A stretch of DNA of 64,000 nt from positions 50,806,915-50,870,914 of the forward strand of contig JAOANR010000006.1 of assembly GCA_030278955.1 (NCBI GenBank), read 5' to 3'. The first letter of the stretch is position 1, and the number at the start of each line of letters is the position of its first letter. The DNA is from Hygrophila difformis. Taxonomy: Eukaryota; Streptophyta; Magnoliopsida; Lamiales; Acanthaceae. Below, in pieces: positions 36,699 through 59,396 of the stretch. The notes beneath the pieces are model-generated. The model did not search any database, was not told the origin of the DNA, and saw nothing but the letters and a program-made list of their open reading frames with translations. A program made the position numbers and the translations under genes.

Positions 36699-37002
36699 TG
36701 ATAATGGCCAGAAATGACCATTATTTTCAATCCATTTCCGTGTCTTAAACGGGCATTTGATCGCATTCCGGTCTTACATTAAGTAAGAAAGCAGTCGAAT
36801 TGGACTGATTTATGCATAATTGTAAAAATAATAAGCTGGTGTGAAAAAGACATAAATATGTAATTTTATTACATATTTATGTTAGAAAAATCCAAAAACA
36901 TGAGAAAAAGAAAAGGAAACAAAAAGATGGGAAAAAGATAGAAAAGCCCACAAAAAGAATATTTTCGGCCCATCTGGCCCAATCCAGCAGGCCCAGGAAA
37001 AC

Positions 37003-37245
37003 CTTTGTCGCGGAAGCCCCTTGGCGCGATGCAGTGTTCCGCGACAAAGGAGGGGTTCCGCGACCAAGTGGCCCAGATGAAGAGGAGACCAGCCAAGCCC
37101 TTTGTCGCGATGACCTTTGTCGCGATGGCATGCTCCGCGACAAAGGCATGTTCCGCGACCAAGATGCACAATTAGAGACACAAGACCCAGTCGAGAAGCC
37201 TTGCCACATGCAGTGTGTTCCGCGACCAACTTGATGCTCCGAGAC
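37003..37245. repeat. CGCGACA palindrome cluster I (5' LTR)
   Basis: About nine GTCGCG/CGCGAC motifs in both orientations (for example TTTGTCGCGGAAG at 37007 and TTCCGCGACAAAG at 37040) immediately upstream of the TATA box. The equivalent copy in the 3' LTR is 52286-52528. Confidence 0.85.
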
Positions 37246-37319
37246 AAAGCTGTGATGTGTGTGATGTCTTAAGACACAATGGGCTAGAATCAAGGCCCAT
37301 GGGCTTAGGGTTACACTTC

Positions 37320-37327
37320 TATAAATA
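37320..37327 (+). promoter_or_regulatory. LTR TATA box
   Basis: TATAAATA about 620 bp into the LTR and 75 bp after palindrome cluster I. Transcription would start about 30 bp downstream. The 3' LTR copy is at 52603-52610. Confidence 0.7.
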
Positions 37328-37979
37328 TGATGTGCCTCCCATGAGCTAAAAAAAAAAGAGGCTAGTTGGAGAGATTGAAATTTTTGTAGAGCTCTTGCAG
37401 GCAAGCTTAGGAGTTCTTCCTTAGGTAGAGTAGTTTAGGTTTATTTTCATGTATTATTTAATTTTTGCTCTTATTTTAGCTTAGTTTAGTATTTTTACTG
37501 TTCACAGTTGCTTAGATAGCCATTTTTATACCATGTTTTGGTTTCTAAACTCTTGTTTTAGGGTTTGTAATACCCAAATCATGGGTATTAACAATACCTC
37601 TTCAATAATATGGGAAAACATTCATCATTTGTGTCCCAAATCATGAAATGGGTTTCACACCCCATGGATTTATGCTTTCTTTTTCGCTTTGGGGTCTCTT
37701 GACCCCCATTATGCCTATTTATGTTTACTGTTAGCATTTTATGGATAATTTTGTGTGGATGTGTGATCAAACCCTAGATTAGGACTCCTGCTTTATTTTA
37801 ATATTCTGCCCATCCTTGTTATTTTTGTTCAAGCATATTCTTCTTTATTTTGAATGTTTCTTGCTTATTTTTAGCTTAGAATAGCTTTTTAATCTGAAAT
37901 AGGGTGAGATCACGCTGTTTGCATGCCACTGTTCATTTCTGCTTTTTCTGACTTTTGTCCTGAACCACCTTGGGCGCCA

Positions 37980-38520
37980 ACCGCCTTCTGGCGCGGAACC
38001 ACGTTCCGCGACAAAATGGCTGTTCCGCGACCAAGGTGTTTCAAGACACTTGTCTCCATAATTTAAAACCCTTTGTCGCGGAATACCTTGTCGCGGAGCC
38101 ACGTTCCGCGACAAAACTGTCCATGCATAGCGACAAAGGAGCCAAACTCTTGCATTTTATCTTCATGGCTTTTTGTCGCGGAATCATCTTGTCGCGGAGC
38201 CACGTTCCGCGACAAAATCCCATTCTGAGACAGAAAAATTATGCCATGTTCCTTGATCTTTGAACACTTTGTCGCGGAACACCTTGTCGCGGAACCACGT
38301 TCCGCGACAAAATTTCTATGCATAGCGACAAAGGTTCAAATGCTTTAGGAATTTTCTGAAAACACTTTGTCGCAATGTCACTCTTGTCGCGGAACCACGT
38401 TCCGCGACAAAATCTTGCATAGCGACAAAGAGGCGTTATGCTGCCAAAAATTCTAAAAACTTGTCGGGATGTCCATGTCGCGGACCTCGGTCCGCGACAA
38501 AATTTATGATATCGCGACAA
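37980..38520. repeat. CGCGACA palindrome cluster II (5' LTR), ~95-100-bp periodic array
   Basis: Six palindromes of the form TTGTCGCGGAACCACGTTCC plus GCGACAA are centred near 38001, 38101, 38202, 38297, 38398 and 38488, a spacing of 90-101 bp. Several units also carry GCATAGCGACAAAG. Each can fold into a hairpin with arms of about 12 bp. TATTTAA follows at 38536-38542. The 3' LTR copy (53262-53787) lacks 15 bp between two TTGTCGCGGA repeats. Confidence 0.85.
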
Positions 38521-41430
38521 GGGTTCCTCTCCCTCTATTTAATCTCAAACAACCTTCATTCTCTTCCTATTTTATATTGCAACACTCACATCATAACCCC
38601 ACGGGTTAGGATGTAACATTCTGGAATTGCAATATAGGGTGTTATGCTGCCCAAATTTTGATTCTCCATTTGCATCACTTAATTAATTGAACCCTTGACT
38701 CATTAATGATTAAGGATTGAGATTAGTAATAATCAAACATCGACAATCATCATGATTAAAGGACCTTTGTTCAATTGCCATTAAAACACTCTTGTATAAA
38801 CAAAATCTTGATGGCTTAAACAGATAATCTGGACTGTAATTAATTATGGTAGGAAGGATTATTTAAGACCATCACATGTGGACCCAATCCACAACCTTGC
38901 ATGAGAAACCAATGTCTCTCATACAAGGGATCTTCTTTTATTTCTTATTTATTTTGTCTTTGTGTGTTGTGTGGAACCATTAGTAAAGAATACATCAGAC
39001 TAATGTTGGCGGGTACTCCCTCATGGATAACTAGCTCGTATTCTGGGTATTAGTTACTAATTGTTATTTTGCATGGTCTGGACGACTGTCAGTGGAAGCC
39101 TTGGCGGTTCGCCCATCTGGGGTTATGATAGCTGCTCGGCTGACTCCCATCCAGATACAGTTTTATTTTTATCATTATCTTAATTTCCAAACCTAAATTC
39201 CAATCCGTACTGGGAGTCAGTTGGCATCAGTCAATGCCAACTGATGATCATTATAGAAGGGAAGCATGTAGGTTTTTATCCGAATTCACAGACAGTGGAG
39301 GCCCAACTGGTGTTGACACCACCATTATAGGGTCTAAGCTGTCTAAATTCGCTCCATCCGAGTAATTGGGAAATTGGACAGTAGATGTTTACAGTCCACC
39401 TGATTATTCTGCCATTACTTTGGTCCCTTGACTACTTCATGTCTGTGTTTCACCTTCTGTCTAGACCCGCATTTATATTTTGGGTCAATTAATTTTACAC
39501 TTCCATATATCTTTATGCATGATAATATTATATACTATTGTGGTCTGTAATTATTTTGGGATCCTTCCCTTGGACAATAGAAGTCTAGATCTTAAACAGA
39601 TATTGCTTTATAAATTTCCAACAAAAATCTCTTTATAAAATCCGGATCTGAGTAAGGGATAAATTCCTCAGTTATGACTAATTCATATCCTGTCAAGGGT
39701 TGTATTTTGGGAAATTAGAAGCAGATTCAGCGATTAGGTCTCGCCTAGACTGAAAGGGTCTGTGTTTTAACTGAGAGTCTAGTACCTGACAGGGAATGAT
39801 TTTCAAATTCATTATTTTCCAAAATTGCTGGTTGATGGAAATGTAAGATTAAGTGCTACACCGAGATGGGGTCCACTTGGATTCAAATACAGTGTAGTAA
39901 ATAATCTTAGAGGAACATCATCCAGGCCTTGGTTATTTTCCAAGATAGGGTTGAGTTTTCTTTCAACTGCTATCCTCTTCTGCCAAAGCCTACTTTTGAG
40001 TCCTGAGTGAGTGCATCCGGGACGAACTAATTTATTAGTTCGTTTCATTAGTTTGTATCTCATAATCACCCGGAAGGAAGTGAACACACTAGTGGTTCAC
40101 TGAGAGCCGGGAATTCTTGATCCATACTCCTTCATCCTGATGGGGAGCTGTCGTTTACTACCAGGGTCAGATTTTCAAAACCTCCGAGTGATAGGTTTTA
40201 AATGCTTTCTTTACCGCTTTCTTTTAACCGCTTTCATTAGAGGTCACTCGGTTGTATTGAGAGTTGTGTAACTGCTACTAGGATTGACAGTTAAGGGATA
40301 GTTTAGGGCTTAATTCAAATCTTTGGGTGTGACATGGGGGAATGATAGCAGTACTTGACACTTCAATAAATGATTTGTCAGGTGTTGCTTTTCCACCACA
40401 GGTGAAGTAACACACCCAGGCCAGGGCAGTTACAAATCTGTGGTATCTTAGAATTTGCGGTCTTAAGAACATGTAAACTCATATTGCAAGTACCTGTCTG
40501 TTAAAGGGAAAGCATTATTGAGAGCATGAGAATCAGCTATCTGATAGAATTATCCCAAACAAAGATCTGCGTATAAAAATGGAAGTTTAATATTGCTGTA
40601 TCTCACTCTTGTCCAATTTTCATTCTTTTCTTCCTGTCCTTTCTGTCTACATTGTGATTCAGCTTCACGGTTGGCACAATGCACCTTTTCCCTGCTTTCA
40701 TAGATAATGTTTACTGCATTCCTAGAATAATTTTTATCCGCTTTCTAGAATAGATTTATTTGCTTTGTAGATTAATTTAACTGCTTTCAAGATCTAGTTT
40801 AAATTCATGTCAGTAGATATTAATCATCTTTCAACCTATTGAGCAATACGAATGGAAAATCTAGTAAAACGACGTGGGACCTGCTTCTATCGCACATCCT
40901 CCAGTGAACGATCCGGTCTTACTATAAATTACTGCAATTTTTGACACCGTGCGCTTTCGGGGGCACAGTTTCTTAAACACGAGCAATAAAAACATGACTA
41001 CTTATAAATATATCCCTAATCACAACCCCGCCATCATAAATTGATTTCATTAAATAAAATCTAAACCAGGATCATGATTTTTCGGAAAATACTCATGTAG
41101 TGGGAATCAGTCAAAAGTTTCATGGCAGGAAATCTTATGACAAGGATTGATGAGAAGTATCATGGCATATTTGCCGGGGATCCTCAGTGTGACAGGCTGA
41201 AGGTCAATTTATCCCGGTTGTGCCGTGAGATTTGTCAACATTTCATGACAGAGAGGACCACAGCGCCATTCGAAACCAAAGCACCATACTTGAGTAATAA
41301 AAAGACTATTAAGCTTAATATATATATATCCCTAAACCCCTTACCGTAAATCATAACTCTTTTCATGTAATAAATCTAACCTGGTATATTTTGGAAAATG
41401 CTTGTGGGACGGAAATTGTCAAAAGTTTCA

Positions 41431-41449
41431 TGGCGCTGTTGCCGGGGAG
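41431..41449 (+). other. Primer binding site (Athila type)
   Basis: TGGCGCTGTTGCCGGGGAG directly after the LTR. It matches the TGGCGCCGTTGCCGGGGA sites of Athila elements (tRNA-Asp class) except for one base. Confidence 0.85.
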
Positions 41450-41591
41450 GATGCAGCGCCGTTTTATTTAGGGAATTACATTCCTCATTGCTCCTAGATT
41501 AGCCTATACATATAATTATAAATATTCACCTTCAGAACCACTTCTAACCTGGGGATTGTACAGGTACTGTCATTATTGAAGCCGTTGTTCT

Positions 41592-43751
41592 ATGCAAAGG
41601 AGGAAGCAGACGCCAGCCGAGATCCCGTTTAATTCAGAGATAGAAAAGACAGCTCGACGTCTTAGGGCGGAGACTAAACGAAGAAGGGAACGGGAACGAC
41701 AGGCATTACTTTCGCCAAGCACCAGCAGCGATATTTCCGAAATGGCAAACCCTGACATCCCACCAATTATTCAACCCAATCCCCCACTTCACAACATTGA
41801 GGAAGACCCCGAAGATGCTGATCATGATGATTTGGATGACCCCCCTCCCCAGATCATACAAGGAGGTGGGAATCCACCAAACATGGAGCAGCAGCACTTC
41901 GAGGCACCCCCTCCCAACCCGAACCAAAACCCACCAAACAACCAAAACCAACCAAATCAGCAAAATTTCCCAAACCAACAGAATCAGCAATACCATAACC
42001 CCCATCAGAATCCCCCGAATCCGAATGATTTCAATGATCCGAGGAACTATTTCATGCCTCAGAACTTCTACCCACAGCAGTACCAAGGTGGGCCTGAGAA
42101 CAATCATCAAGCAGCAGCTGCTGCTGATTACATGCAGCCGATTTTAGAGCCATATCTGAACATCCCTGGACAAGCTCCATTCCTAGCCAGGAACTTCGAA
42201 CTGAAACCGGCCCTAATCAATCTAGTCCAGAGCAACCAGTTTGCCGGAGCAAGTCATGAAGATCCCCATGATCACCTGCAAACCTTCCTAGAATTGTGTG
42301 ACACGATCAAGAATCGTGATGTACCCACAAACACTATTCGACTAAGGCTATTCCCCTTCTCTCTGACAAGCGGAGCACGAACATGGTACAAGTCACTGCC
42401 CATAAATCAGAAGTCTACATGGGAAGATGTGATCAGAAACTTCCTGGCAAAATACTTCCCGGAGTCCAAGGTGGATGAATGCCGCTCCAAAATTGCGGAA
42501 TTCAAGATGAAACCAGACGAGTCCTTGTATGATGCAAAGGAAAGATTCTTCAACCTACTCAGAAAGTGTCCTCAACATGGCTTCCATGACTGGGAGAGAT
42601 TAAGAAAGTTCTACAGTGGTCTGACTCCAGCATGGAAATCCATGCTTGATGCTGCTGGTGGTCAACATTTGCTTTACATACCGATGGACCAAGCCTGGGC
42701 AAAGATTGAAGCCATGAGTGTAAACCGTTCTGTTCTAACTGATGATGGTAATCTCACTCCCCCTCGTAGTTTATGTGCTGTAGGTACAGTAGAGAAGTCA
42801 GACATTGAAAAGCTTCAAGAGCAAGTGGCAGCGTTGTCTGTAAATCAAGGAGTTGGAAGTTCCGCGCTGGGACAGCAAACTGATGTGATTTGTGGACTGT
42901 GTCAAGGCGCTCATGCAACTGACACATGCGAGCAAGTCACAGCTGAGAGCTGTAACTATGCAGGAGCTTTTCCAAATAGACACCCGAATTTGTCCTACTC
43001 AAACAACAACGCCTTGAATTCACATCTCTTGAATAAGCCACAGCAGCAATTCAACCCTCAGCAGAACCAAGGATTCAATCAGAACAGGGGCCAACATTTT
43101 CAGAATCCAGGTTTCCAACCTCAGATCCAGCAGAGGCCGCCTCAGAATTTCCAGAACTTTCAGCCCAATCAGAGTTTCCAGCCTCAGTTTGTCCCAAACC
43201 AAGGCCAGTGGAATCAGAATCAGCATCAAAATCAGAATCAGAATCAAAAGCCTCCTTCAAGGCTTGAGAATTTGATGACTGATTTCATCACTAGTCAGAA
43301 AGAGATCAACAATCAACTGCAGGCCTCCATCAGAAATGTGGAGACCCAAGTTACACAGATGGCTAATGAGATGCAGAAAAGGGACAAAGGAACATTGCCT
43401 AGTACTGCGGAAAAGAACCCGCAATGCAAGGCAATAACCTTGAAATCTGGAAGAGTACTAGCTGGACCAAAGGGAGCAGATACTGGAGCGGAATTTGAAG
43501 AAGATGGTATTGTTGACAATGCTGGTAAGGAAGCTGATAATGGGAACGAAGCGGAAAAAGAGACAGCCAATTGCAGACTGAAGTTGCGCCTGAAACGGCT
43601 GAAACAGATAAGGGTACAGGTGAAGGTACAACTTCCTTCCCTTCACCACCAAAAATTGCTAATAACAAGTACATGCCCAGGATTCCTTATCCTGCGCGGC
43701 TTAAAAATAAAGAACATGATCTTAAATTCAAGAAATTTCTGCAACGATTAA
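41592..43751 (+). CDS. Gag of the Athila-like element, 719 codons
   Basis: Forms the particle that packages the element RNA. The start ([19 protein letters not shown]) is the first ATG after the primer site. Order: basic helix (about 20-40), Pro/Asn/Gln-rich region (about 75-185), gag core (about 200-360; [40 protein letters not shown]), zinc-knuckle-like [13 protein letters not shown] (about 434-446), a long Gln/Asn/Phe/Pro-rich tract (about 480-560), then [11 protein letters not shown] (about 615). The last ~60 codons look non-native; the homologous reading continues in the -1 frame that becomes pol from about 43570. It is otherwise free of stops. Confidence 0.92.
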
Positions 43752-46700
43752 AGTCTGTAGAGATAACCATTCCTCTCACAGAAATGATTTCCGAAATGCC
43801 CATCTATGCTAAGTTCTTGAAAGAATTGATTTCAGGAAAAAGGCAGGTTGAGCAGGAAGAGGTAATTATTCTCAACAGCACATGCAGTGCCATCGTTCAG
43901 ATGAGAATGCCTGAAAAGAAAGAGGACCCCGGATGTTGCACACTTCCAGTACAATTCGGAAAGGCCAAAGTGAGTATGGGGCTTTGTGATTTAGGATCAA
44001 GCATCAATGTGATGCCACTAGCTATGGCTGTTCGCCTTAAGCTTGGAGAAATTCAACCGGTCAAGATGAGACTGCAACTTGCAGACAGATCAATCACTCA
44101 GCCCGTAGGAATCCTCAAGGATGTTGTGGTCAAAACCGGGCAGGTTCTTTTCCCGGTCGACTTCATCGTCCTCGACATTGAAGAGGATTCTGAAATACCG
44201 CTTATCCTTGGACGCCCATTTCTAGCCACTGGTGGTGCACTGATTGACGCTAAATCCGGAAAAGTCACCTTAAGGGTCGATGGCGAGGAGATCATCTTTG
44301 ATATGGAGAAATTGCAGAAATTTCCGAATGACAGTTCTTGTTTCTCATTTGAAAATGTAATAGTTAGGGAAGAGCCAGACTCTGAACTTGATTGTGAAAT
44401 GATGCTGGATGAACTATCAAAGCAGATACTGAAGCCTGCTGGCGTGGAGCACAAAGGATGCAAAGCCGTTCACTTTGCCGATCCCGAAACAGGGGATTTG
44501 GAGGAATTTGACGGCATCGTATTCCATGATGACGCCAACCAAGAGGAGGAAGAGGATCCTGTACTGATGCAGGATCCCGAAGGTAAATCTGTTCTCCCAC
44601 TACCCAATTCTCGCAAACTACTCCCTTCCGTTGAATGTCCACCAGAGCTTGAACTTAAAACACTACCCGATCATCTCAAGTACGCGTTTCTCGCAGAACA
44701 TAAAAAGTTACCCGTGATTGTTTCGGCTAAGCTCTCCCAAGAGCAAGAAAATGCTCTGGTGGTCATTCTTAAGAAACATGTACATGCAATAGGTTGGACC
44801 ATTTCTGATATAAAAGGAATAAGCCCTTCTATTTGCATGCACAGGATTCTAATGGAAGAAGAGTTTAAACCCTCCCGTCAACCTCAGAGGCGATTGAACC
44901 CCCTTATGCAGGAAGTGGTAAGGAAAGAAGTTATCAAGCTCTTAGATGCTGGTATAATCTATCCTATCTCTGATAGCAAATGGGTTAGCCCGGTGCAGGT
45001 CGTACCCAAACGAGGAGGGATGTGCATAACCAAGAATGAGCAAGGAGAAGAGGTTGCAACCAGGCCAGTGACCGGATGGAGAGTTTGTATCGACTACCGG
45101 AAGCTGAACGAGGCCACACGCAAGGACCATTTTCCATTGCCATTCATTGATCAGATGCTTGAGAGGTTGGCAGGGAGAGAGTTTTATTGCTTTTTGGATG
45201 GTTATTCTGGTTATAATCAGATTGTTATTTCCAGTGAAGACCATGATAAAACCACTTTTACTTGCCCGTACGGCACTTTTGCCTATCGACGGATGCCTTT
45301 TGGTTTGTGCAATGCACCTGCTACTTTTCAAAGATGCATGATGTCTATTTTCTCTGAATTTATCGAAAAATGCATTGAGGTCTTTATGGATGACTTCTCT
45401 GTGTATGGAGATACATTCGAAGATTGCTTGGCCAATCTTGCCAAGATTTTAAAGAGGTGTGAGGACACTAACTTGGTTTTAAATTGGGAAAAGTGCCATT
45501 TTATGGTCACTGAGGGCATAGTGTTAGGTCATCGCATTTCTCGTGCAAGAATTGAAGTTGATCCAGCCAAAGTTTCCATCATTTCCAATCTCCCTCTCCC
45601 TAACTCGATCAAATCAGTTAGGAGCTTCTTAGGGCATGCCGGTTTTTACCGGCGATTCATTAAGGATTTCTCTAAAATTGCCAAGCCGCTCACTAATCTG
45701 CTTTGTAAAGAAAATCCTTTCTTAATAAATGAAGCGTGTGTCCAAGCCTTTGACACGCTCAAGAAGATGTTGGTTTCTGCACTGATAGTGCAACCCCCCG
45801 ATTGGTCACTACCTTTCGAGGTAATGTGCGATGCTAGTGGTCTCGCCGTGGGCGCAGTTCTTGGACAACATAAGGATGGGAGACACTACGTAATTCATTA
45901 CGCAAGTCATGCCCTGAATGAAGCCCAAGTTAACTACACCACAACGGAGAAAGAGATGTATGCTGTAGTCTTCGCGTTTGACAAGTTCAGACAGTACCTG
46001 ATAGGTACAAAGACCATAGTATACACCGATCATACAGCATTGAGATACTTGTTTAGCAAACAAGATGCAAAACCTCGATTAATCAGGTGGGTACTTCTGT
46101 TGCAAGAATTTGACATCATAATAAAAGATAGGCGAGGTCGAGATAACGGTGCTGCTGACCACTTATCTCGATTAGATAATGATAAAAAGGAAAAAGCCGT
46201 CAATGAAGATTTCCCGGACGAACAGTTGTTCGCGTTGCATCTGCATAATCAAGTTTGTCCATGGTTTTCCGACATCGCTAACTTCTTGGCGTGCGGAGTA
46301 ACCCCACAGTTTTCGAACTATCATCAGAGGAATAAGTTCAAACGAGATGTATTAAGTTACTTCTGGGAAGAACCCTATCTCTTCAAACACTGCCCTGATT
46401 CAATAATCAGGCGATGTGTGACTGAGCATGAAGCTTATCAAATTGTCAGAAAATGCCATGAATTAGAATATGGAGGTCACCATGGTCCCGCTCGAACGGC
46501 CCACAAGGTCCTCGAATGTGGATTTTATTGGCCTCAAATCTATGAGGATTGCCGGACATTTGTTAAGGGCTGTGACAGATGCCAAAGATTAGGAAACATC
46601 TCCAAGAGGGATGAGATGCCTCAAAAGGGGATTCTCACACTTGAGATCTTTGATGTATGGGGCATTGACTTCATGGGACCGTTTCCACCATCTGGTGGAA

Positions 46701-47548
46701 ACTACTATATCTTGGTAGCTGTCGATTACGTATCCAAATGGGTCGAGGCTGTCGCATTACCGACCAATGATGGTAGCCAAGTCATCAAGTTCCTCAAGAA
46801 CAACATTTTCAGTCGGTTTGGCGTACCTAGGGTGGTGATATCTGATGGAGGAACACACTTTATTAATAAAGGTTTTGAAACTTTAATGAGTAAAAATGGG
46901 ATCCTCCATAAGATAGGCACGCCTTACCATCCTCAGACTAGTGGTCAAGTCGAAGTATCCAATCGCGAAATCAAACACATACTCGAAGCCACTGTCGGGA
47001 TAACCCGTAAGGATTGGGCACGTAAGCTCAATGATGCTCTATGGGCATACCGCACAGCATATAAGACTCCCATCGGGATGTCTCCATATAGGCTGGTCTT
47101 CGGAAAAACCTGTCATTTGCCCGTAGAGCTAGAGCATAAAGCTTATTGGGCCGTTAAAACGCTTAACTTCGATCCGAAAGTTGCTCAGAGCAAACGTAAG
47201 TTGGACCTCAATGAAATTGAGGAAATACGAGCGCAAGCTTATGAAAGCTCTCGAATTTACAAGGAGCGGACCCAGAAGTTGCACGATCGCCGGATTAAAC
47301 CTAAGTATTTTTATGTTGGCCAACATGTGTTATTGTTCAATACTAGGTTGAAGCTGTTCCCCGGAAAGCTCAAATCTAGATGGGAAGGACCACATGAAGT
47401 ACTAGAGGTGTTCAAAAACGGAGCTGTCAGGATCCGAACTGATAGGGGCGATATAGTGGTGAATGGAAAACGATTGAAAGAGTACCTCGGACAGTTCGAT
47501 CCGGAGAAAGAAAGCCAAGCAGTGGCAGACCCGGCTTACACTCAATAA
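43541..47548 (+). CDS. Pol of the Athila-like element: protease, RT, RNase H, integrase
   Basis: Open from 43541, in the -1 frame relative to gag, overlapping gag by about 210 nt. It has no usual start and would need a frameshift or gag-pol fusion. Counting residues from 43571: gag-linker motif [13 protein letters not shown] (about 35); protease active site [11 protein letters not shown] (about 139); RT with [20 protein letters not shown], the first catalytic Asp in [10 protein letters not shown], and FMDDFSVYG (about 604); RNase H with MCDASG (about 750), [10 protein letters not shown] and [10 protein letters not shown] (about 818); integrase zinc region ending CDRCQRLG (about 1005); DDE residues in [10 protein letters not shown] (about 1030), VISDGGTHF (about 1090) and [10 protein letters not shown] (about 1130). 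All catalytic residues are present and no stop interrupts 1,325 codons. Confidence 0.94.
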
Positions 47549-48522
47549 GAAACAGCATTTAAAAACACAAAAATTTCAGTTTATATATATATATAGTATA
47601 TATAGTATATATTTACAGTACTTATTTCATGACGAGCAAGTACCCAAAGATCAATTAAACATTTAGAGTACTAAGACTCTAAATGTGAGGATGTTGATAT
47701 TTGGAGAAAATCTAATGCATTTCAATTATCTGCCTTGCAGAAGTTCGGAACCACCAAAAAGAGGAGCAGAAAAGAGTAACACGGAAAAACCAGGTTCTTG
47801 GTTGGATTAGTTCCATAAGTCTGAGAAAACGCTTTCGGAAATTAAAGAAATTTAATACCCGAAATAAAATTCACAGATAAATGGAACTGACCCAACCTAA
47901 TTTTATGCAAGTGGATTGTTTAATTTTCAGCCCAGCATTTTGAATTTACTTGGACTGAATTTATTCAGCCCAAATCAAATAAAATGGACTCAGGCCCAAC
48001 ATCACACTCGGGCCCAGTCCAAGAAAATTTGAAATTCAAAAATTCTTTGTCGCGGAAGGTCCTTTGTCGCGATGTCATGCATCGCGACCAGGCCCTGTTC
48101 CGCGACAAACTCCCTTTTCTTTCTTAACCCTTCTCTGCTAGTTGTCGCGATGCACCTTGTCGCGGAGCATGACTCCGCGACCAAGCCCTGCTCCGCGACA
48201 CAACCTGCGTTGACTGTCTCCATACTGAACTTTGTCGCGATGACCTTGTCGCGGAGCATGACTCCGCGACCAACCCTCGACTCCGCGACCTCTCTGATGT
48301 CGCCATGCCTTGTCGCGGAACCTTGTTCCGCGACAAAGTCTCGGATTCCGCGACAAAAGTTCAAGTATTTATACCCCCCCACCCCCTCCAGTTTCTTTCC
48401 ACTTTCACTTGTCATTTCAACTCCCTCCAACTTCTTCATCTTCTTTTCCCCCATTTTTCTCTCATCCGAACGAACAACACGTGTTCTTCGCAACCTTAGC
48501 ACTCTATTTTCAAGGGGAAACT
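47549..48522 (+). promoter_or_regulatory. LTR-like promoter segment upstream of the F-box-like gene
   Basis: AAATGTGAGGATGTTG at 47681-47696 repeats the polypurine-like motif that abuts the 3' LTR. The following TGATATTTGGAGAAAATCTA resembles the LTR start. GGCCCA-rich sequence, then a CGCGACA palindrome cluster (48044-48356), then TATTTATA at 48366-48373 follow in the same order and nearly the same spacing as in the LTR (cluster +304 and TATA +621 in the LTR; about +349 and +671 here). I infer a diverged LTR copy serving as promoter for 48523-50318. Confidence 0.6.
48044..48356. repeat. CGCGACA palindrome cluster III (internal)
   Basis: About twelve TGTCGCG/CGCGAC motifs. Palindromes such as TTGTCGCGGAGCATGACTCC plus GCGAC occur near 48157 and 48245, and TTGTCGCGGAACC..GTTCC near 48309. 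Same motif family as LTR clusters I and II, with a partly different loop. Confidence 0.8.
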
Positions 48523-50318
48523 ATGGACCGATTTCATGGACTCCTTCCCAACCTTGGACCCGTGCCTAGACCCAAGCCAAGGAGGAGAGGGTAAACCCTG
48601 TTTTCGCCATGTTCATAACACCCATTCGGACCCTTTATTTTGTTTTCATTTTGTTGTGTTCTTGGTGTGATGTTGTTAGTGCGCACATTTAACTTTAGAT
48701 TTTTTGAGGTTTTTGAGTGCTCTCGGTCGAGAGCACCATTTTGAAACATTTGAAACCCCATTTTGAAACTGGTAATAGTTTAAAGATTTTGAAGTTTTAA
48801 AACTGGAAAGAACAAACTGATGAACATTTGGATATTGTTTTGAATATCTTGATGTTATTGGTTTGATTGATCTTGATGTGAAATGCACAGAGTTGAGTTG
48901 GTGTAATAAAAGAGGTAAGACCTTTTTGGGCACATCTGTTCTCATGATAGAAATCTCATGGGAATAAATGTTTGTTTGTTTATGGAAACATAGTACAAAC
49001 ACCCAATGAGAAACTTCCACTTTTAATAAAAGCAAAATTTTAGAAAAAGACAAAAAGAGTTATTTTTGTTTAATGTTTGACTTGAGCCTTTTGTTCCCAA
49101 TGGAACACTAGTGTGAGTAAAATAGCAGTATTTTTGTCACCCAACTGCTATCATTTTCAAAAATCCAAAATGGTACCACTCACATCCCACTTTTGTTAAA
49201 TAAAACAAGTCAACCATTTTAAAATTAAAAACAGTGTTTGCAAATTTTTGGATGCTTTAACTGTCCAAACAGTCCAAGCTATCCAGAAATAGCAGATCCG
49301 TTCCGCCACGTCTCCATTGCACATTCCAATATTCGAGCATTCCATTTCCATCTATCCATCTCATTCCACTTTCAACAAGTGTCTCGGACTTGTTTAATAA
49401 AATTGAAAACTTTTGGGCCCAATGGCCCATTAAAAAAGATTTTAGGCCCAATGGCCAATTTTATTTTATTTTGGGCTCCTTAGCCCAATTAAAACCAAAT
49501 ATTATTTACAAATGCTTTAGATTAAAATTCAAGTCAGAAATTTAATAATCTCACATCTAGAGCAAAGCTCTAAATGTGAGGATGTTGGTTTCTGAACTTG
49601 AATAATTTCTGAAAATTATATAAAAATTGGATTAATTACTTCTTATCTTTTCAGGGGTAATCCTCCCATTCCAGACCCTGCTCCAGAGGGAACCAAGTTG
49701 CTGGACTTACCGCTCGAACTCCTTGGTGAGATTCTCTCCCGGATAGGAGAGGATGAAATCAGGGAGGTGTTTGCTGCACAACGGGTATGCAAGAAGCTCA
49801 GGGATGCTGGAAACCTTACCATCGTGTACAGGCGATGCGAGGTTGACTCCTCCACTGTGAAGAGAGGGCAAGAAAGAATCCGTTGGCAGAAGGAGAGATT
49901 CCTGCAAACATGCACAGCTGCAGGAAACTTCAATCTCCAGATCATTCCAGCACTTATGGCGTTTGTAGAAGGGAATGAGGAGCACGCTTGTGAACTGCTG
50001 CGCCCAGGAATTGAGGACAACCACAAGGCGTCAATCTTCACCCGGGGACTGATGCTTATGAGTAAGACGGATGAAAGGCAAGTTGAACAAGGAATCAGAA
50101 TGATCGAAAGGATGGTAACAGATCGGTCAATCCTTCAGTACACGTCTACCAACGTCCTCGGATGGATGACGGATAACCCAGACACTCCGTACCTATGGGC
50201 TAATCAAGGAAACAGAATCTACTGCCCAAGGAGGCACGAGCCCATGATGATCCATAACGGCTGGTGTCTGCGGTGTGAGTTGACCAGTTACATCCACTGG
50301 GCCAGATTCCTATTCTGA
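48523..50318 (+). CDS. F-box-like protein gene inside the retroelement, 2 exons, 243 aa
   Basis: Exon 1 48523-48590 (MDRFHGLLPNLGPVPRPKPR start) and exon 2 49655-50318 join at GTAAAC/TTTTCAG in frame (732 nt including stop); the 1,064-nt intron holds no long coding frame. Residues about 38-75 form an F-box-like motif (LDLPLELLGEILSRIGEDEI, then VCKKLRDAG). The rest has repeat-like helices (ACELLRPGIEDNHKASIF; MLMSKTDERQVEQGIRMIER) and a C-terminal Cys/His group (CPRRHEP, GWCLRCE). This layout resembles the plant F-box proteins annotated like At1g67623 and At2g35280; in such families the F-box recruits SCF ubiquitin ligase through SKP1. It occupies the env-like position of Athila elements. It is free of stops. 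Exon 1 is predicted from splice phase alone; the codons from about 49698 on are firm. Capture of a host gene is inferred. Confidence 0.7.
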
Positions 50319-51981
50319 AGAAAGAAGGAAGAATCCTAGTTCCACTTTACCTTGCTTTATTTCATTTCCATTTTAGTAGTAGTAATCTGCAAGGGATTCC
50401 TCCTTTTGTGTGTGCAGGTTCGTATTAACTGCACGAGAATCCCTTGCCACGGATGTATTTACTGCTTTCCCTAAATTGGAACTCAGCTTTTGAGACCACT
50501 GAACAATTCTTCACTGCTTTCCTTTGAAAAGATGTCTGTACAGTCCGAGATGAATAAGTGACTGTCAGGCCAAAAATATGCTGTTGACATACTCAGTATG
50601 TCAGCAGTGCCTCTTTACTGCTTTCAATTAAATAACCAGCAAAAATATGCATAAACTTGCTCTAAATTCACAGGTTGAATTTAGGCTTATGATTAAATTT
50701 TCAGACTTTCAAATTGGGATAATATAATTGAAGACATGCATGACATGAACTCCTGAGGTTTTGAGCTATAAAAATTTAATAATGCGATCAGCTTATTGGG
50801 TAATAAATTTGCATGTTAGAGATTTCGATTGAATAAATTGTTAGAATTAAGCTTTGATTAAATTTGAGAATATTGTATGACATGAATCAACCCAACCTTG
50901 TGAGATTTGAGCCATGAGTCACTTTTACTCATTCATTTTCTTTGATGTGTGAATCATTTTGATTAAAGGAAACTAGAACTTGCAGTTGGGACCGATTCAA
51001 GACCATGCCATATTCCCGAAATCGAGCATATGATCGAGGCACTTAGAAAAACCCAAATTTTTGGCCTTCGTTTGAAATCCAAACCCAAAAATATTTTCCC
51101 CTTAGGATTAACCACTTTGAGCCTTAAGCCTAATTTTTCTTTGAAGCCCTCTATATTATTCCTAGCCTTCTAAAAAGACCAAGAAATTCAAACCCAAGTG
51201 TGCAAGAATGAATTCTATCAAAGGCATTAAATTTATGATCATCAAAAATGATTAATCGGTATTCCATGAACCGATTCAAAAAAAAAAAAAAAAAAGAAGT
51301 TGAATGTCATTCAACACAAATAAATTGCAAATGACAAGCAATTAGACAATAGTCTAATGTCATGCAAAAGAAAATCAAAAAGAAAGAAATAATGATGATC
51401 ATAAAGTTTAAATAAAAATGCCAAGTTATGATAGAATAAATCGTTGCCACTTCTAGCCCAATAATTTTCCTTTCCTACCTAATGTTACAACCGTACGCCC
51501 CGTTATAACCCTCAAATAAGACCTCGTGATCTCGATTTGAAGAAATGAGCCGGTGGCGAGTTGGTCTGATTGCAAGCTTATGGGATAATTTAATTAAATT
51601 TGATTTTGAGCGTTCATGATTAAACCCCAATTGAGAGTGAGTGAATTTTTCCGATTCTCTTATATGTGAGGCTTTGTCTTATTACACATGTTCATGTCAT
51701 CCTCTAATTCTCATCCCTAATCTTTGCATTTTTCAAACATGATATTCATGAAAGGTTGATGATGATGTTTGATTTGTAGGCCCGATACAGTGAGCAAGTA
51801 TCATTTCATTAAACACTGCAATCAAGGGAATTTAATACTTGTAATTTTTGATTGTCTTATCCCAATCCATAAAGGATGTGATTTATGAAGCCACGAAAAT
51901 GAATTGAATATGTAGAGTCCGTGTTCTTACGAACATTGACTCTGACTGCTCGGGGACGATCAGTATTAAATGTGAGGATGT
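50319..51981 (+). other. Non-coding 3' region of the Athila-like element with polypurine-like motif
   Basis: AT-rich, with a poly-A run near 51279 and no supported gene. AAATGTGAGGATGT at 51968-51981 directly precedes the 3' LTR and is the best candidate for the plus-strand primer. Other copies of the motif are at 47681 and 49572. Confidence 0.65.
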
Positions 51982-54900
51982 TGATAATGGCCAGAAATGA
52001 CCATTATTTTCAATCCATTTCCGTGTCTTAAACGGGCATTTGATCGCATTCCGGTCTTACATTAAGTAAGAAAGCAGTCGAATTGGACTGATTTATGCAT
52101 AATTGTAAAAATAATAAGCTGGTGTGAAAAAGACATAAATATGTAATTTTATTACATATTTATGTTAGAAAAATCCAAAAACATGAGAAAAAGAAAAGGA
52201 AACAAAAAGATGGGAAAAAGATAGAAAAGCCCACAAAAAGAATATTTTCGGCCCATCTGGCCCAATCCAGCAGGCCCAGGAAGACCTTTGTCGCGGAAGC
52301 CCCTTGGCGCGATGCAGTGTTCCGCGACAAAGGAGGGGTTCCGCGACCAAGTGGCCCAGATGAAGAGGAGACCAGCCAAGCCCTTTGTCGCGATGACCTT
52401 TGTCGCGATGGCATGCTCCGCGACAAAGGCATGTTCCGCGACCAAGATGCACAATTAGAGACACAAGACCCAGTCGAGAAGCCTTGCCACATGCAGTGTG
52501 TTCCGCGACCAACTTGATGCTCCGAGACAAAGCTGTGATGTGTGTGATGTCTTAAGACACAATGGGCTAGAATCAAGGCCCATGGGCTTAGGGTTACACT
52601 TCTATAAATATGAGGTGCCTCCCATGAGCTAAAAAAAAAGAGGCTAGTTGGAGAGATTGAAATTTTTGTAGAGCTCTTGCAGGCAAGCTTAGGAGTTCTT
52701 CCTTAGGTAGAGTAGTTTAGGTTTATTTTCATGTATTATTTAATTTTTGCTCTTAGTTTAGCTTAGTTTAGTATTTTTACTGTTCACAGTTGCTTAGATA
52801 GCCATTTTTATACCATGTTTTGGTTTCTAAACTCTTGTTTTAGGGTTTGTAATACCCAAATCATGGGTATTAACAATACCTCTTCAATAATATGGGAAAA
52901 CATTCATCATTTGTGTCCCAAATCATGAAATGGGTTTCACACCCCATGGATTTATGCTTTCTTTTTCGCTTTGGGGTCTCTTGACCCCCATTATGCCTAT
53001 TTATGTTTACTGTTAGCATTTTATGGATAATGTTGTGTGGATGTGTGATCAAACCCTAGATTAGGACTCCTGCTTTATTTTAATATTCTGCCCATCCTTG
53101 TTATTTTTGTTCAAGCATGTTCTTCTTTATTTTGAATGTTTCTTGCTTATTTTTAGCTTAGAATAGCTTTTTAATCTGAAATAGGGTGAGATCACGCTGT
53201 TTGCATGCCACTGTTCATTTCTGCTTTTTCTGACTTTTATCCTGAACCACCTTGGGCGCCAACCGCCTTCTGGCGCGGAACCACGTTCCGCGACAAAATG
53301 GCTGTTCCGCGACCAAGGTGTTTCAAGACACTTGTCTCCATAATTTAAAACCCTTTGTCGCGGAGCCACGTTCCGCGACAAAACTGTCCATGCATAGCGA
53401 CAAAGGAGCCAAACTCTTGCATTTTGTCTTCATGGCTTTTTGTCGCGGAATCATCTTGTCGCGGAGCCACGTTCCGCGACAAAATCCCATTCTGAGACAG
53501 AAAAATTATGCCATGTTCCTTGATCTTTGAACACTTTGTCGCGGAACACCTTGTCGCGGAACCACGTTCCGCGACAAAATTTCCATGCATAGCGACAAAG
53601 GTTCAAATGCTTTAGGAATTTTCTGAAAACACTTTGTCGCAATGTCACTCTTGTCGCGGAACCACGTTCCGCGACAAAATCTTGCATAGCGACAAAGAGG
53701 CGTTATGCTGCCAAAAATTCTAAAAACTTGTCGGGATGTCCATGTCGCGGACCTCGGTCCGCGACAAAATTTATGATATCGCGACAAGGGTTCCTCTCCC
53801 TCTATTTAATCTCAAACAACCTTCATTCTCTTCCTATTTTATATTGCAACACTCACATCATAACCCCACGGGTTAGGATGTAACATTCTGGAATTGCAAT
53901 ATAGGGTGTTATGCTGCCCAAATTTTGATTCTCCATTTGCATCACTTAATTAATTGAACCCTTGACTCATTAATGATTAAGGATTGAGATTAGTAATAAT
54001 CAAACATCGACAATCATCATGATTAAAGGACCTTTGTTCAATTGCCATTAAAACACTCTTGTATAAACAAAATCTTGATGGCTTAAACAGATAATCTGGA
54101 CTGTAATTAATTATGGTAGGAAGGATTATTTAAGACCATCACATGTGGACCCAATCCACAACCTTGCATGAGAAACCAATGTCTCTCATACAAGGGATCT
54201 TCTTTTATTTCTTATTTATTTTGTCTTTGTGTGTTGTGTGGAACCATTAGTAAAGAATACATCAGACTAATGTTGGCGGGTACTCCCTCATGGATAACTA
54301 GCTCGTATTTTGGGTATTAGTTACTAATTGTTATTTTGCATGGTCTGGACGACTGTCAGTGGAAGCCTTGGCGGTTCGCCCATCCGGGGTTATGATAGCT
54401 GCTCGGCTGACTCCCATCCAGATACAGTTTTATTTTTATCATTATCTTAATTTCCAAACCTAAATTCCAATCCGTACTGGGAGTCAGTTGGCATCAGTCA
54501 ATGCCAACTGATGATCATTATAGAAGGGAAGCATGTAGGTTTTTATCCGAATTCACAGACAGTGGAGGCCCAACTGGTGTTGACACCACCATTATAGGGT
54601 CTAAGCTGTCTAAATTCGCTCCATCCGAGTAATTGGGAAATTGGACAGTAGATGTTTACAGTCCACCTGATTATTCTGCCATTACTTTGGTCCCTTGACT
54701 ACTTCATGTCTGTGTTTCACCTTCTGTCTAGACCCGCATTTATATTTTGGGTCAATTAATTTTACACTTCCATATATCTTTATGCATGATAATATTATAT
54801 ACTATTGTGGTCTGTAATTATTTTGGGATCCTTCCCTTGGACAATAGAAGTCTAGATCTTAAACAGATATTGCTTTATAAATTTCCAACAAAAATCTCTT

Positions 54901-56695
54901 TATAAAATCCGGATCTGAGTAAGGGATAAATTCCTCAGTTATGACTAATTCATATCCTGTCAAGGGTTGTATTTTGGGAAATTAGAAGCAGATTCAGCGA
55001 TTAGGTCTCGCCTAGACTGAAAGGGTCTGTGTTTTAACTGAGAGTCTAGTACCTGACAGGGAATGATTTTCAAATTCATTATTTTCCAAAATTGCTGGTT
55101 GATGGAAATGTAAGATTAAGTGCTACACCGAGATGGGGTCCACTTGGATTCAAATACAGTGTAGTAAATAATCTTAGAGGAACATCATCCAGGCCTTGGT
55201 TATTTTCCAAGATAGGGTTGAGTTTTCTTTCAACTGCTATCCTCTTCTGCCAAAGCCTACTTTTGAGTCCTGAGTGAGTGCATCCGGAACGAACTAATTT
55301 ATTAGTTCGTTTCATTAGTTTGTATCTCATAATCACCCAGAAGGAAGTGAACACACTAGTGGTTCACTGAGAGCCGGGAATTCTTGATCCATACTCCTTC
55401 ATCCTGATGGGGAGCTGTCGTTTACTACCAGGGTCAGATTTTCAAAACCTCCGAGTGATAGGTTTTAAATGCTTTCTTTACCGCTTTCTTTTAACCGCTT
55501 TCATTAGAGGTCACTCGGTTGTATTGAGAGTTGTGTAACTGCTACTAGGATTGACAGTTAAGGGATAGTTTAGGGCTTAATTCAAATCTTTGGGTGTGAC
55601 ATGGGGGAATGATAGCAGTACTTGACACTTCAATAAATGATTTGTCAGGTGTTGCTTTTCCACCACAGGTGAAGTAACACACCCAGGCCAGGGCAGTTAC
55701 AAATCTGTGGTATCTTAGAATTTGCGGTCTTAAGAACATGTAAACTCATATTGCAAGTACCTGTCTGTTAAAGGGAAAGCATTATTGAGAGCATGAGAAT
55801 CAGCTATCTGATAGAATTATCCCAAACAAAGATCTGCGTATAAAAATGGAAGTTTAATATTGCTGTATCTCACTCTTGTCCAATTTTCATTCTTTTCTTC
55901 CTGTCCTTTCTGTCTACATTGTGATTCAGCTTCACGGTTGGCACAATGCACCTTTTCCCTGCTTTCATAGATAATGTTTACTGCATTCCTAGAATAATTT
56001 TTATCCGCTTTCTAGAATAGATTTATTTGCTTTGTAGATTAATTTAACTGCTTTCAAGATCTAGTTTAAATTCATGTCAGTAGATATTAATCATCTTTCA
56101 ACCTATTGAGCAATACGAATGGAAAATCTAGTAAAACGACGTGGGACCTGCTTCTATCGCACATCCTCCAGTGAACGATCCGGTCTTACTATAAATTACT
56201 GCAATTTTTGACATCGTGCGCTTTCGGGGGCACAGTTTCTTAAACACGAGCAATAAAAACATGACTACTTATAAATATATCCCTAATCACAACCCCGCCA
56301 TCATAAATTGATTTCATTAAATAAAATCTAAACCAGGATCATGATTTTTCGGAAAATACTCATGTAGTGGGAATCAGTCAAAAGTTTCATGGCAGGAAAT
56401 CTTATGACAAGGATTGATGAGAAGTATCATGGCATATTTGCCGGGGATCCTCAGTGTGACAGGCTGAAGGTCAATTTATCCCGGCTGTGCCATGAGATTT
56501 GTCAACATTTCATGACAGAGAGGACCACAGCGCCATTCGAAACCAAAGCACCATACTTGAGTAATAAAAAGACTATTAAGCTTAATATATATATCCCTAA
56601 ACCCCTTTCCGTAAATCATAACTCTTTTCATGTAATAAATCTAACCTGGTATATTTTGGAAAATGCTCGTGGGACGGAAATTGTCAAAAGTTTCA
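51982..56695 (+). repeat. 3' LTR of the Athila-like element, 4,714 bp
   Basis: Partner of 36699-41430 with the same palindrome clusters (52286-52528 and 53262-53787) and TATA box (52603). Differences seen are a 15-bp deletion in cluster II, a 1-bp A-run change, a 2-bp TA change near 56588 and scattered substitutions. It ends TTTCA before the CCAAC duplication. Confidence 0.95.
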
Positions 56696-59396
56696 CCAAC
56701 TTCCTTTAAATTTTAGGACACGCTCTTAACATGCCCTCCAACGTCTGGATCGTCCTCTCTATCTGTCCATCCGTCATCGGGTGGAATGCGGTAGTAATCT
56801 TAATTTGTGTACTGAGGGCTTCTTGCAGCTTAGTCCAAAAGTGAGAGACAAATCTATTCTCTGTCGGAGATAATTTCATGTGGTACTCCATGACGTCGAA
56901 CCACATTGTCGATATAAGCTCTCGCCACTTGATCCATAGACCAAGTATCCTTCATCGGAATAAATGCAGCAGTCTTCATCAACCTATCAACGATCACCCA
57001 AATCTTGTTCATCCCTCTAGGTGATCGTGGTAACCCAGAAACAAAATCCATTGATATACTATCCCATTTCCAACTTGGGATTTCCAATGGCTACATTAAT
57101 CCAAGGGGTTTTTGACGTACTGCCTTGACCTTCTAGCAGTGAGGCATCTCGACACAAAATCTGATACCTCTCTTTTCATATTCGGCCACCAGTAAATCTT
57201 CTTCAGGTCTTTATAAAAGCTTGTCACCCCCGGGGTGAACCGAATATGGGGTGTTATGCCCTTCTTCTATCAGTCTCCGTTTCAGGTCAACACGTTTCTG
57301 TGGCACACACCACTTTCTCTTGAAGCGAATGCTTCCGTCTTCATGCATAGCAAACCCTATTGCCTTGGCATCGGCAATGCTTTTCATAATCCTTCCCACC
57401 TTCATATTGCCTGGTTGGGCAAGTTTTATCTCATCAAATATTAGACTCTACTACCATTGCGTTAACCACATCATTCACTGTGCCTGAATCCACAAGCTCT
57501 AAGTTCAACCTCGCCAAGTCCATGTACAAGGCTGGTGGTATCACTAGCGAATTTGCCACTGGCCGGGTCTTCCAGCTTAAGGCGTCAGCTACCACATTTG
57601 CCTTCCCTTCGTGGTATGAAATTTCGAGATCATAATCCTTGATCAGTTCCAACCATCTCCGTTGCCTCAAATTCAACTCCTTCTGAGTGAATATGTATTT
57701 GAGGCTTTTATGATCAGTAAACATTCGACATTTCACCCATAGAGATAATGTCTCCATATTTTTAGAGTGAATACGACTGTTTCCAGCTCTAAGTCGTGTG
57801 TCGGGTAGTTCTCCTCATGGGGTTTTAATTTCTGTGATGCATATGCAATGACTCTCTGATCTTGCATCAAAACACATCCCAAACCTTCTTTTGAAGCATC
57901 ACTGTATACTTCGAAATCACCATTCTCTGATGGGGCTAACACTGGCGTAGTTGTGAGTCAATTCTTCAGTTCTTTAAACGCGATCTCACACTCAACAGCT
58001 GGGTTAAAGGGCGTGAGATTTTTTAGAAATCCTTTACAAATCGCCTATAGTATCTAGCGAGTCAAGGAAAATTCTTACTTCTGTTGGACTTGTCGGCGGT
58101 ACCCACTCCGTTACTGCCGAAACTTTCGCCGGGTCTACTGAAACTCCATCAGCAGATAATATGTGTCCAAGGAATGCCACTTCCTTCATCCAAAAGTTGA
58201 ATCTGGACAGCTTGTTGTAGAGTTGATTTTGGCGCAAGATCCTCAACACTTGATGCAAATGTTGGGAATGCTCCTCCTCGCTCCTTGAGTAGATCAGGAT
58301 GTCGTCAATGAACACCACAACGCACTGATCTAACAATTCTCTAAGCACATTGTTCATGAGGTTCATGAACATTATAGGGGCATTTGTTAACCCAAAGGAT
58401 AACACTGTGAACTCGTAGTGTCCATAACGAGTTCTAAACGCCGTTTTCGGAATGTCCTTCTCCGCAATTCTCAACTGGTGATAACCAGATCGCAAGTCAA
58501 TCTTCGAGAACACTTAAGCTCCCTTCAACTGATCAAATAGGTCCTCAATTCTCGGTAATGGTTACTTGTTCTTGATGGTGAGTTGATTTAGACCTCTATA
58601 ATCAATTCATAGACGTAACCCTCCGTCCTTTTTCTTAACAAATAAGACCGGTGCTCCCCACGGCGAAGTACAGGGTCTTATGTATCCCTTTTCTAACAGC
58701 TCCTCCAGTTGTTCCTTCAACTCTTACGTCTCCAGTGGTGCCATACGGTAAGGAGCTTTCGAGACAGGTTCCGATCCCGGAATGAGATCTATAGTGAATT
58801 CAAGATCTCGCTCAGGCGGCATGCCAGGAAGGTCTTCGGGAAATACGTCGGGATATTCTCTTGCTACTGGGATGTTGTCCACCTCATTCTCTTCCGCTTC
58901 AAGGTTGTGAATGTAGCATGCATACAACGCGTATCCCTTACGAATTAGGCTATATAACTTGAGAGCGTTAACAACCTTGTTGTTCTTCTTAGGGGGTTGA
59001 GAGTAAAAGATAACTCTCTTTCCCCTACTTTTGGACAGGGTGATTTTATGCTTTATACTGGGTCAACCAATCCATACCCAGTACAACGTCAAAGTCCCTT
59101 AAGTCAAAATCTACCAAATTAGCAAAGAATTCTACGTTCTTGATTACTATCGGAATTCTGTTATAACGTTTAGAGCACGATACTACTTCTCCTGAAGGTA
59201 GTTGAATTCCTAAGCTAATCATCTCGCACTTAGGTAGATCTAGTTTAGGTAAAATCCTTGATGATATGATTGAAGAACTAGCTCCAGAGTCAAACAGAAC
59301 TTTAAGGGTGTACTCAAAACATGAAATGTACCTTCCATCGCATCACCTTGCACAGTCACGTCTGCTTGGTTGATAACATTCAACCGTCCCATTTCC
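56696..59396 (-). pseudogene. Chromovirus pol 5' part: protease, RT, RNase H, integrase, decayed
   Basis: Minus-strand continuation of the element at 35.4-36.7 kb. From right to left: the RLNVINQADV segment (about 59390), protease flap motif VVLGMDWLTQYKA (about 59070), pre-RT linker EYPDVFPEDLPGMPPE (about 58850), RT with [13 protein letters not shown] (about 58505) and FIDDILIYS (about 58310), RNase H ([15 protein letters not shown], about 57900; [10 protein letters not shown], about 57720), integrase zinc region (about 57220) and core (WDSISMDFVSGLPR, about 57075; HEIISDRE, about 56870). Stops or frame changes lie near 58720, 58515, 58030, 57750, 57430, 57100 and 56870. The 5' end (gag and 5' LTR) is replaced by copia sequence at about 59396. 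Confidence 0.88.

Follow-up and report, generated by a model that had tools for sequence, protein, structure and literature searches.

A 64,000-nucleotide stretch of the Hygrophila difformis genome (Acanthaceae; assembly GCA_030278955.1, contig JAOANR010000006.1, positions 50,806,915 to 50,870,914 of the forward strand; hereafter the window, numbered from its first letter) contains a young gag-pol long terminal repeat (LTR) retrotransposon, probably of the Athila lineage, which carries a two-exon F-box gene between pol and its 3′ LTR. The reading that we favor, and that we consider probable, is that this is an accessory gene of the element which is expressed by splicing and encodes a substrate adaptor of an SCF (SKP1-cullin-F-box) complex; splicing, promoter use, SKP1 binding, and the substrate are all inferred. 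The argument draws on the structure of the gene, its profile identity, the conservation of its start and splice sites, purifying selection on its frame, its mosaic alleles, and the existence of four related frames elsewhere.

Exon 1 (48523..48590, + strand; 68 nt) opens with the ATG of ACTATGG and supplies 22 codons plus 2 nt. A putative intron, GTAAAC..TTTTCAG (48591..49654, +), separates it from exon 2 (49655..50318, +; 664 nt, stop included), in which the F-box lies at about 49698-49829 and a TPR_27 domain at about 49884-50135. The donor (GAGAGG/GTAAACC) and the acceptor (CTTCTTATCTTTTCAG/GGG) make a GT/AG pair, and the two exons join in phase to give 243 codons and a stop, exactly as a first-pass annotation of this DNA had proposed. 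The stop-free run that includes exon 2 (49602-50318) is 238 codons long, while the maximum on the sense strand in 500 dinucleotide shuffles of 47549-51981 was 204. The first Met of this frame is residue 119, downstream of the F-box, so that an ATG-started F-box protein needs exon 1, or some other upstream exon, to be spliced on.

Both domains exceed their curated Pfam cut-offs in the window frame: the F-box (PF00646) scores 21.4 bits (cut-off, 20.5), and the TPR_27 domain that follows it (PF23310) scores 35.2 bits (cut-off, 27) over residues 95-178 of 238. The first-pass annotation had called the N terminus F-box-like and had named the lack of an F-box profile signal as grounds for rejection; the signal is present. 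When 11 element proteins were aligned, the F-box was matched by 10 and TPR_27 by 9, and F-box residues L18, P19, G24, I26, L27, S28, and R29 were invariant. Plant F-box/TPR_27 genes, which we take to be the At2g35280/At1g67623-like family, have the same two domains in the same order.

The gene occupies the place and strand at which Athila elements have their env-like frames (PMC7264820, in the accessible part of that source), and one could ask whether such a gene has been misread here as an F-box. We regard this as extremely improbable and have discarded it as a candidate. The env-like and additional frames of Athila and other plant LTR elements, as described in the accessible parts of PMC7264820 and PMC11728184, have env-like, transmembrane, or Transposase_32 features; the window frame, by contrast, has an F-box and TPR_27 above their cut-offs and no membrane-like stretch (its highest 19-residue Kyte-Doolittle mean is 1.31). 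Nor did Pfam give this frame, the one after pol, a Transposase_32 or Athila match of the kind that an Athila ORF1-type (open reading frame 1) protein would show.

The gene is not confined to one copy: in the genome from which the window comes (246 contigs; 915 Mb), the exon 2 frame yielded 6111 first-look candidates, a figure that is not a copy count. The best 150 of the 6111 were scored and are 92-100% identical to the query, and 131 of the 150 lack a stop in the 238-residue query frame, whose first 18 residues are intron; three of the 19 stop-bearing matches were fetched later (L040, L046, and L048) and are open in the spliced frame. All 150 matches start at query residue 1 to 8, which implies that the intron end is present, although this is a mild test, since the query includes those residues. 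Among the 30 best copies (the window copy being L001), exon 1 with its ATG, the donor, and the acceptor are kept in 29, L020 having lost exon 1, and 28 of these 29 are stop-free (L012 has one stop). In 20 lower-ranked copies, exon 1, the intron, exon 2, and the LTR start were matched throughout and the end of pol in all but L039; the location between pol and the 3′ LTR given in the first-pass annotation is thus found in 19/20 fetched copies. The splice sites are intact in all 20, the ATG in 19 (TTG in L036), and the frame is free of stops in 19 (one stop in L050). The ratio of nonsynonymous to synonymous differences per site (pN/pS) in exon 2 is 0.163 (pS, 0.187) over the window and these 20 copies, against 1.20 and 2.09 in shifted-frame controls on the same 21 rows, and it is 0.168 over 29 of the 30 best copies (L020 dropped). 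The end of pol gives 0.115 (20 rows; L039 dropped).

A further sample was picked by the reverse transcriptase (RT) of the element. The RT yielded 21434 first-look candidates, of which the best 150 were listed; sampling of that list at intervals of 18 rows (rows 9 to 135) gave 8 of the 150, whose gene region was fetched, so that the results apply to close relatives. Exon 1 with its ATG, the donor, and the acceptor are present in 8/8 of these copies, and the full frame, of 242 or 243 codons when spliced, is present in 7; in L072, exon 2 ends after about 76 nt and is followed by a gag-like frame, a break which was read by eye as a nested insertion. Over the window and the seven other copies, exon 2 has a pS of 0.390 and a pN of 0.120 (ratio, 0.306), and pairwise dN/dS ranges from 0.15 to 0.29. 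In these relatives, the gene therefore behaves as an accessory gene of the element: it is present in all eight copies, intact in seven, and has a pN/pS of 0.306. Maintenance of the frame by purifying selection across the copies examined, which the first-pass annotation had suggested looking for, is supported by ratios of about 0.31 in the RT-picked and 0.16 in the lower-ranked copies, and the copies are neither stop-ridden nor lacking the frame, as they might have been had that annotation been mistaken. These values also bear on whether the gene could be a passenger, that is, a functionless piece of a host gene which was acquired in a single event and amplified along with the element. Plant LTR retrotransposons are known to capture genes (PMC7264820), and few breaks are expected in recent copies of so young an element, but a passenger does not account for a pS of 0.39 beside a pN of 0.12 with open frames in 7/8 RT-picked copies, for shifted-frame ratios of 1.20 and 2.09, or for related frames with low pN/pS in a second element type (see below). 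We had already come to disfavor this explanation and consider it very unlikely.

Constraint is unevenly distributed along exon 2. The pN/pS is 0.320 in the 14 codons before the F-box, 0.179 in the F-box, 0.451 in the linker, 0.288 in TPR_27, and 0.346 in the C terminus, which makes the F-box the most constrained part, with more variability in the rest, as expected if SKP1 is a fixed partner and the substrate-binding part varies. We propose that RNA would start either from an LTR-like promoter inside the element or from the 5′ LTR and that splicing would join the 22-codon leader exon to the startless F-box/TPR_27 exon, giving a 243-amino-acid (aa) protein. Unspliced RNA would be the form that is reverse transcribed, because the fetched copies keep the intron (29/30, 20/20, and 8/8). 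The F-box would bind host SKP1 in an SCF complex, and the TPR and C-terminal part, which varies more, would pick a protein whose degradation helps the element. Our guess is that the substrate would be a silencing factor; an action of the element on host silencing is offered as a hypothesis, by analogy. It is also conceivable, if unlikely, that the gene is kept but that its F-box-like fold serves some non-SCF job, for example in particles or RNA handling. Such a role would sit well with the modest F-box scores and with a related frame (frame B, below) that falls under both F-box cut-offs and lacks TPR_27, and SKP1 binding by the window protein is itself a prediction; however, it would leave unexplained why the F-box should be the most constrained part (0.179 versus 0.29-0.45 in the later parts of exon 2) and why its core residues should be invariant in 11 proteins.

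Several points weigh against a spliced gene for an SCF adaptor and should be set beside the evidence in its favor. The F-box scores are modest: PF00646 clears its cut-off narrowly (21.4 versus 20.5), and F-box-like (PF12937), at 21.9, falls below its cut-off of 24.3. A sequence search of the PDB found chance-level matches and no homologue, and a single-sequence structure model had a pLDDT (predicted local distance difference test) of 38.8 and was not used. Splicing is a prediction from the DNA; exon 1 taken alone is weakly constrained (pN/pS of 0.439 on 22 codons); and the Athila label is tentative. Furthermore, the gene-picked samples, and likewise the TPR_27 sample described below, are ranked by protein score, which biases pN downward, and neighboring noncoding stretches in the lower-ranked copies differ by 0.05-0.17 and are as alike between copies as the exons are, so that similarity alone is no proof of selection. 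A comparison of exon with intron similarity was dropped as proof of selection on both these grounds, and pN/pS, shifted-frame controls, and the RT-picked sample were used in its place.

The silent-site divergence of exon 2 is out of proportion to that of the element around it. Exon 2 has a pS of 0.39, compared with 0.080 for the RT of the same copies (nine, with L072 included), although copies ranked by RT protein may be closer in the RT than usual; between the same pairs, the intron at 48800-49560 differs by 0.012-0.072. Averaged per 60 nt, divergence amounts to 0.02-0.09 over 48780-49679, 0.11-0.25 over 49680-50399, and 0.04-0.06 beyond, and exon 2 is thus a sharply bounded island of old divergence. 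A second variable stretch (48600-48780; 0.18-0.25) lies in the intron directly after exon 1. Two copies are mosaic: L071 is L069-like in its first part and L070-like in its second, with its first 60 nt again closer to L070, while L073 combines a window-like first part with an L070-like end. In each case, 0/1000 permutations were as extreme, with parents picked by eye and uncorrected for in the test. Exon 2 appears from these alignments to be a set of old types, each constrained, which have been swapped and recombined within otherwise similar elements.

Repeated cassette replacement by recombination with distant element families, rather than selection that keeps alleles, could also have produced the island, and we give it a little under an even chance. 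It competes with the allele interpretation and not with the idea of an accessory gene as such. The sharp edges of the island (0.02-0.09 at 48780-49679 and 0.06 after 50400, against 0.11-0.25 at 49680-50399) and the apparent mosaicism of L071 and L073 (0/1000 each, with the parents chosen by eye) are what such replacement would leave. However, exchange spreads types, and the long separation of these types at pairwise dN/dS of 0.15-0.29 is left unexplained; the variable intron stretch at 48600-48780 is a poor match for cassette replacement and for long-kept alleles alike.

Frames related to the window gene occur in a second element type. TPR_27 gave 5039 first-look candidates in the same genome, and the best 150 of these, when scored, were all over the cut-off, 147 of them without a stop; unlike the window's frame, these matches lie mostly in frames of 260 aa. 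Across 14 named control genomes, there was one first-look signal for TPR_27 and none over the cut-off. In a large protein set, 215 candidate relatives were found, none at an E value of 10, and of 35 pattern hits in viral contigs, none was confirmed. The second element type was read at one place in three pieces (L054, L051, and L055). It has primer-site sequence, a gag (PF03732), a protease match below the cut-off, and, downstream of the F-box-like frames described next, a frame of 839 aa in which Transposase_32 scores 48.8 bits (cut-off, 45), a domain that has been tied to Athila ORF1 (PMC11728184, accessible part). No RT, RNase H, or integrase was found between the protease match and the F-box-like frames, and no LTRs were found between L054 and L055; this element type may depend on others for its RT.

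Four F-box-like frames, A to D, stand there in tandem, and downstream of them are frames of 262 and at least 225 aa without a Pfam match. Frame A, which is broken off, is over both F-box cut-offs; frame D is over the F-box and TPR_27 cut-offs; frame C is over one or the other, depending on the copy; and frame B, below both F-box cut-offs and without TPR_27, aligns with the other frames at about 30% identity. Among 12 fetched stretches, all have an open frame D (235-273 aa), 9 have a frame C of at least 259 aa, and 5 have a frame B of at least 247 aa (L053 stops short of B). Frame D was the search target, and C and B were not; pN/pS is 0.138 in D (shifted frames, 1.45 and 1.17), 0.286 in C, and 0.542 in B. 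Frames A to D and the window frame share 23-53% pairwise identity, and in none of the five does a Met precede the F-box. By the rule used, acceptor-like sites precede the window exon, C, and D, but not A or B, and no credible match to the exon 1 peptide turned up in this element type. The four frame types separate in a tree built from 32 frames, but its deep joins may be false, and we have not relied on it.

The genome also holds a seemingly ordinary host F-box/TPR_27 gene, L052 (TPR_27, 52.3 bits), which is about 16-23% identical to frames B, C, and D. As judged by eye, its frames are interrupted within both the F-box and the TPR region, two places at which the genes of the elements run on unbroken; the element's intron lies upstream of the F-box. 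The first-pass annotation had argued from the kept intron that unspliced RNA is what is copied, and the retention counts given above fit that part of the claim; what has changed is that the intron does not look like one captured with a host gene, a candidate that is unsupported given that the one host-like homologue is interrupted elsewhere. The element frames further differ from host-type F-box/TPR_27 genes in their very many copies (counted as first-look candidates).

The closest parallels that we found in the literature differ from the window gene in instructive ways. Orchid Gypsy elements with a 2-ODD frame (an AlkB-like N6-methyladenosine [m6A] demethylase) are likewise Gypsy-type elements that have added a host-type enzyme or regulator domain and kept it over many copies, but the domain is another one, and the accessible part of their description gives no exon/intron arrangement like that of the window gene (PMC9289625). 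"F-box" is absent from the main text of the domain screen of 121 angiosperm genomes in the same paper, and the accessible part of a Retand survey makes no mention of it (PMC11963269). Splicing has been reported for the sense additional or env-like ORFs of barley Bagy2 (PMC7264820, accessible part). Our literature searches, in which most subscription papers were outside the scope and which are not proof of absence, returned no report of an LTR retrotransposon with an F-box gene. Plant viruses do bring F-box proteins of their own, namely polerovirus P0 and nanovirus CLINK (PMC3588083 and PMC6593998, accessible parts). We liken these to the element protein, as F-box proteins carried by a plant parasite; unlike the viruses, the window element would act in its own plant host, and its function is suggested by analogy.

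Small RNAs and DNA methylation hold down plant retrotransposons, and we know of few elements with a known protein answer to host silencing. One speculative and, as a whole, rather doubtful possibility is that the F-box gene is a counterdefense gene in a conflict with the host, with a fixed SKP1-binding part and many old alleles of the substrate part, which template switching from one element to another would reassort and which would have been expanded to four-frame arrays in the gag-protease element, together degrading host silencing factors. Since the element is abundant and both maintains and diversifies an F-box gene of its own, it offers a direct handle: the binding partner of the protein may reveal a host factor that restrains the element. 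The element likewise gives an opportunity to test for retrovirus-like splicing in a plant. It also suggests that F-box gene counts in plant genomes may include retrotransposon genes.

The element itself is a single integrated LTR retrotransposon of the gag-pol type (36699-56695). The 5′ LTR (TGATAATGG..GTTTCA; 36699..41430, +) and the 3′ LTR (51982..56695, +) are about 4.7 kb long with TG..CA ends, and the target site duplication CCAAC (no strand assigned) flanks them at 36694..36698 on the left and 56696..56700 on the right. The primer binding site TGGCGCTGTTGCCGGGGA (41431..41448, +) adjoins the 5′ LTR, and the polypurine region GTATTAAATGTGAGGATGT (51963..51981, +) adjoins the 3′ LTR. Across 4714 aligned bases, the two LTRs are distinguished by 17 substitutions and 3 indel events, a Kimura two-parameter (K2P) distance of 0.0036 (identity was 99.26% in a separate repeat comparison), which agrees with the near-identity of the LTRs noted in the first-pass annotation and dates the insertion to 0.14 or 0.26 million years at assumed rates of 1.3e-8 or 7e-9, respectively. 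Pfam recognizes gag (Retrotrans_gag; 41580..43751, +) and, in the pol frame (43541..47548, +), protease, RT, RNase H, and integrase in gypsy order, the protease (PF13650) scoring exactly its cut-off of 24.3. The completeness of pol claimed earlier therefore stands for RT, RNase H, and integrase, with the correction that gag and pol are in different frames in the window copy, where they overlap at 43541-43751; a single open frame of about 1990 aa surrounds the RT in many of the best 150 of the 21434 RT candidates. Assignment to Athila is probable rather than certain: it rests on the primer binding site, which we presume to be Athila-like, and on a gag and protease that we take to have an Athila look. 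Rfam and tRNA scans of the window gave no match.

The gene seems to be seated in former LTR-end material. There are three copies of the motif AAATGTGAGGATGTTG, a mark of the polypurine tract and of the start of the LTR, at 47681, 49572, and 51968. Around the first two, the similarity extends over some 120 bp (score, 64, against a shuffle maximum of 38), while the likeness of the third to the others is limited to the motif itself. The first inner copy lies in a hairpin (47659..47696, +; fold z, −5.1), and the second lies in another (49530..49600, +; −33.4 kcal/mol; z, −8.8), 54 nt before the acceptor. In the latter, 877/891 cells pair over 29 rows, but 0/31 pairs have changed on both sides, so that conservation alone could account for the pairing. 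The second element type has two further copies of a hairpin with this motif, downstream of its last F-box frame (L051:3891-4042). Upstream of exon 1, a stretch at 47967..48311 (+) is collinear with the unique 3′ (U3) region of the LTR of this same element (score, 129, against at most 47 in 200 shuffles). This likeness is mostly due to a shared GTCGCGGA-type repeat; outside the repeats, the 5′ flank is weakly alike (6/200 shuffles equally good), and neither the 3′ flank (138/200 equally good) nor 48410-49580 (17/100 equally good) showed a likeness to the LTR. A putative inner TATA box, TATTTATA (48366..48373, +), is present in 21/21 rows (the window and 20 copies). The LTR-end material was perhaps left behind by a shift of the LTR boundary, a history that we infer.

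A few minor features of the window remain to be noted. Within the LTR, a second copy of its own end lies about 300 bp before that end (56300-56445; score, 65; shuffle maximum, 37), followed by a primer-site-like TGGC, which looks like the trace of an outward shift of the LTR end. Some 960 nt downstream of the stop codon of the F-box gene, a stretch of about 19 consecutive A residues (51279-51297) could be a relic of captured polyadenylated RNA or could be due to chance. Elsewhere in the window, an open frame of 775 aa (5363-7690) is a putative CACTA-type transposase. Two pairs of direct repeats, 18234-20717/22980-25464 (about 2.5 kb; 98% identical) and 27504-28294/31945-32737 (about 0.8 kb; 92% identical), are each probably the LTRs of another element.

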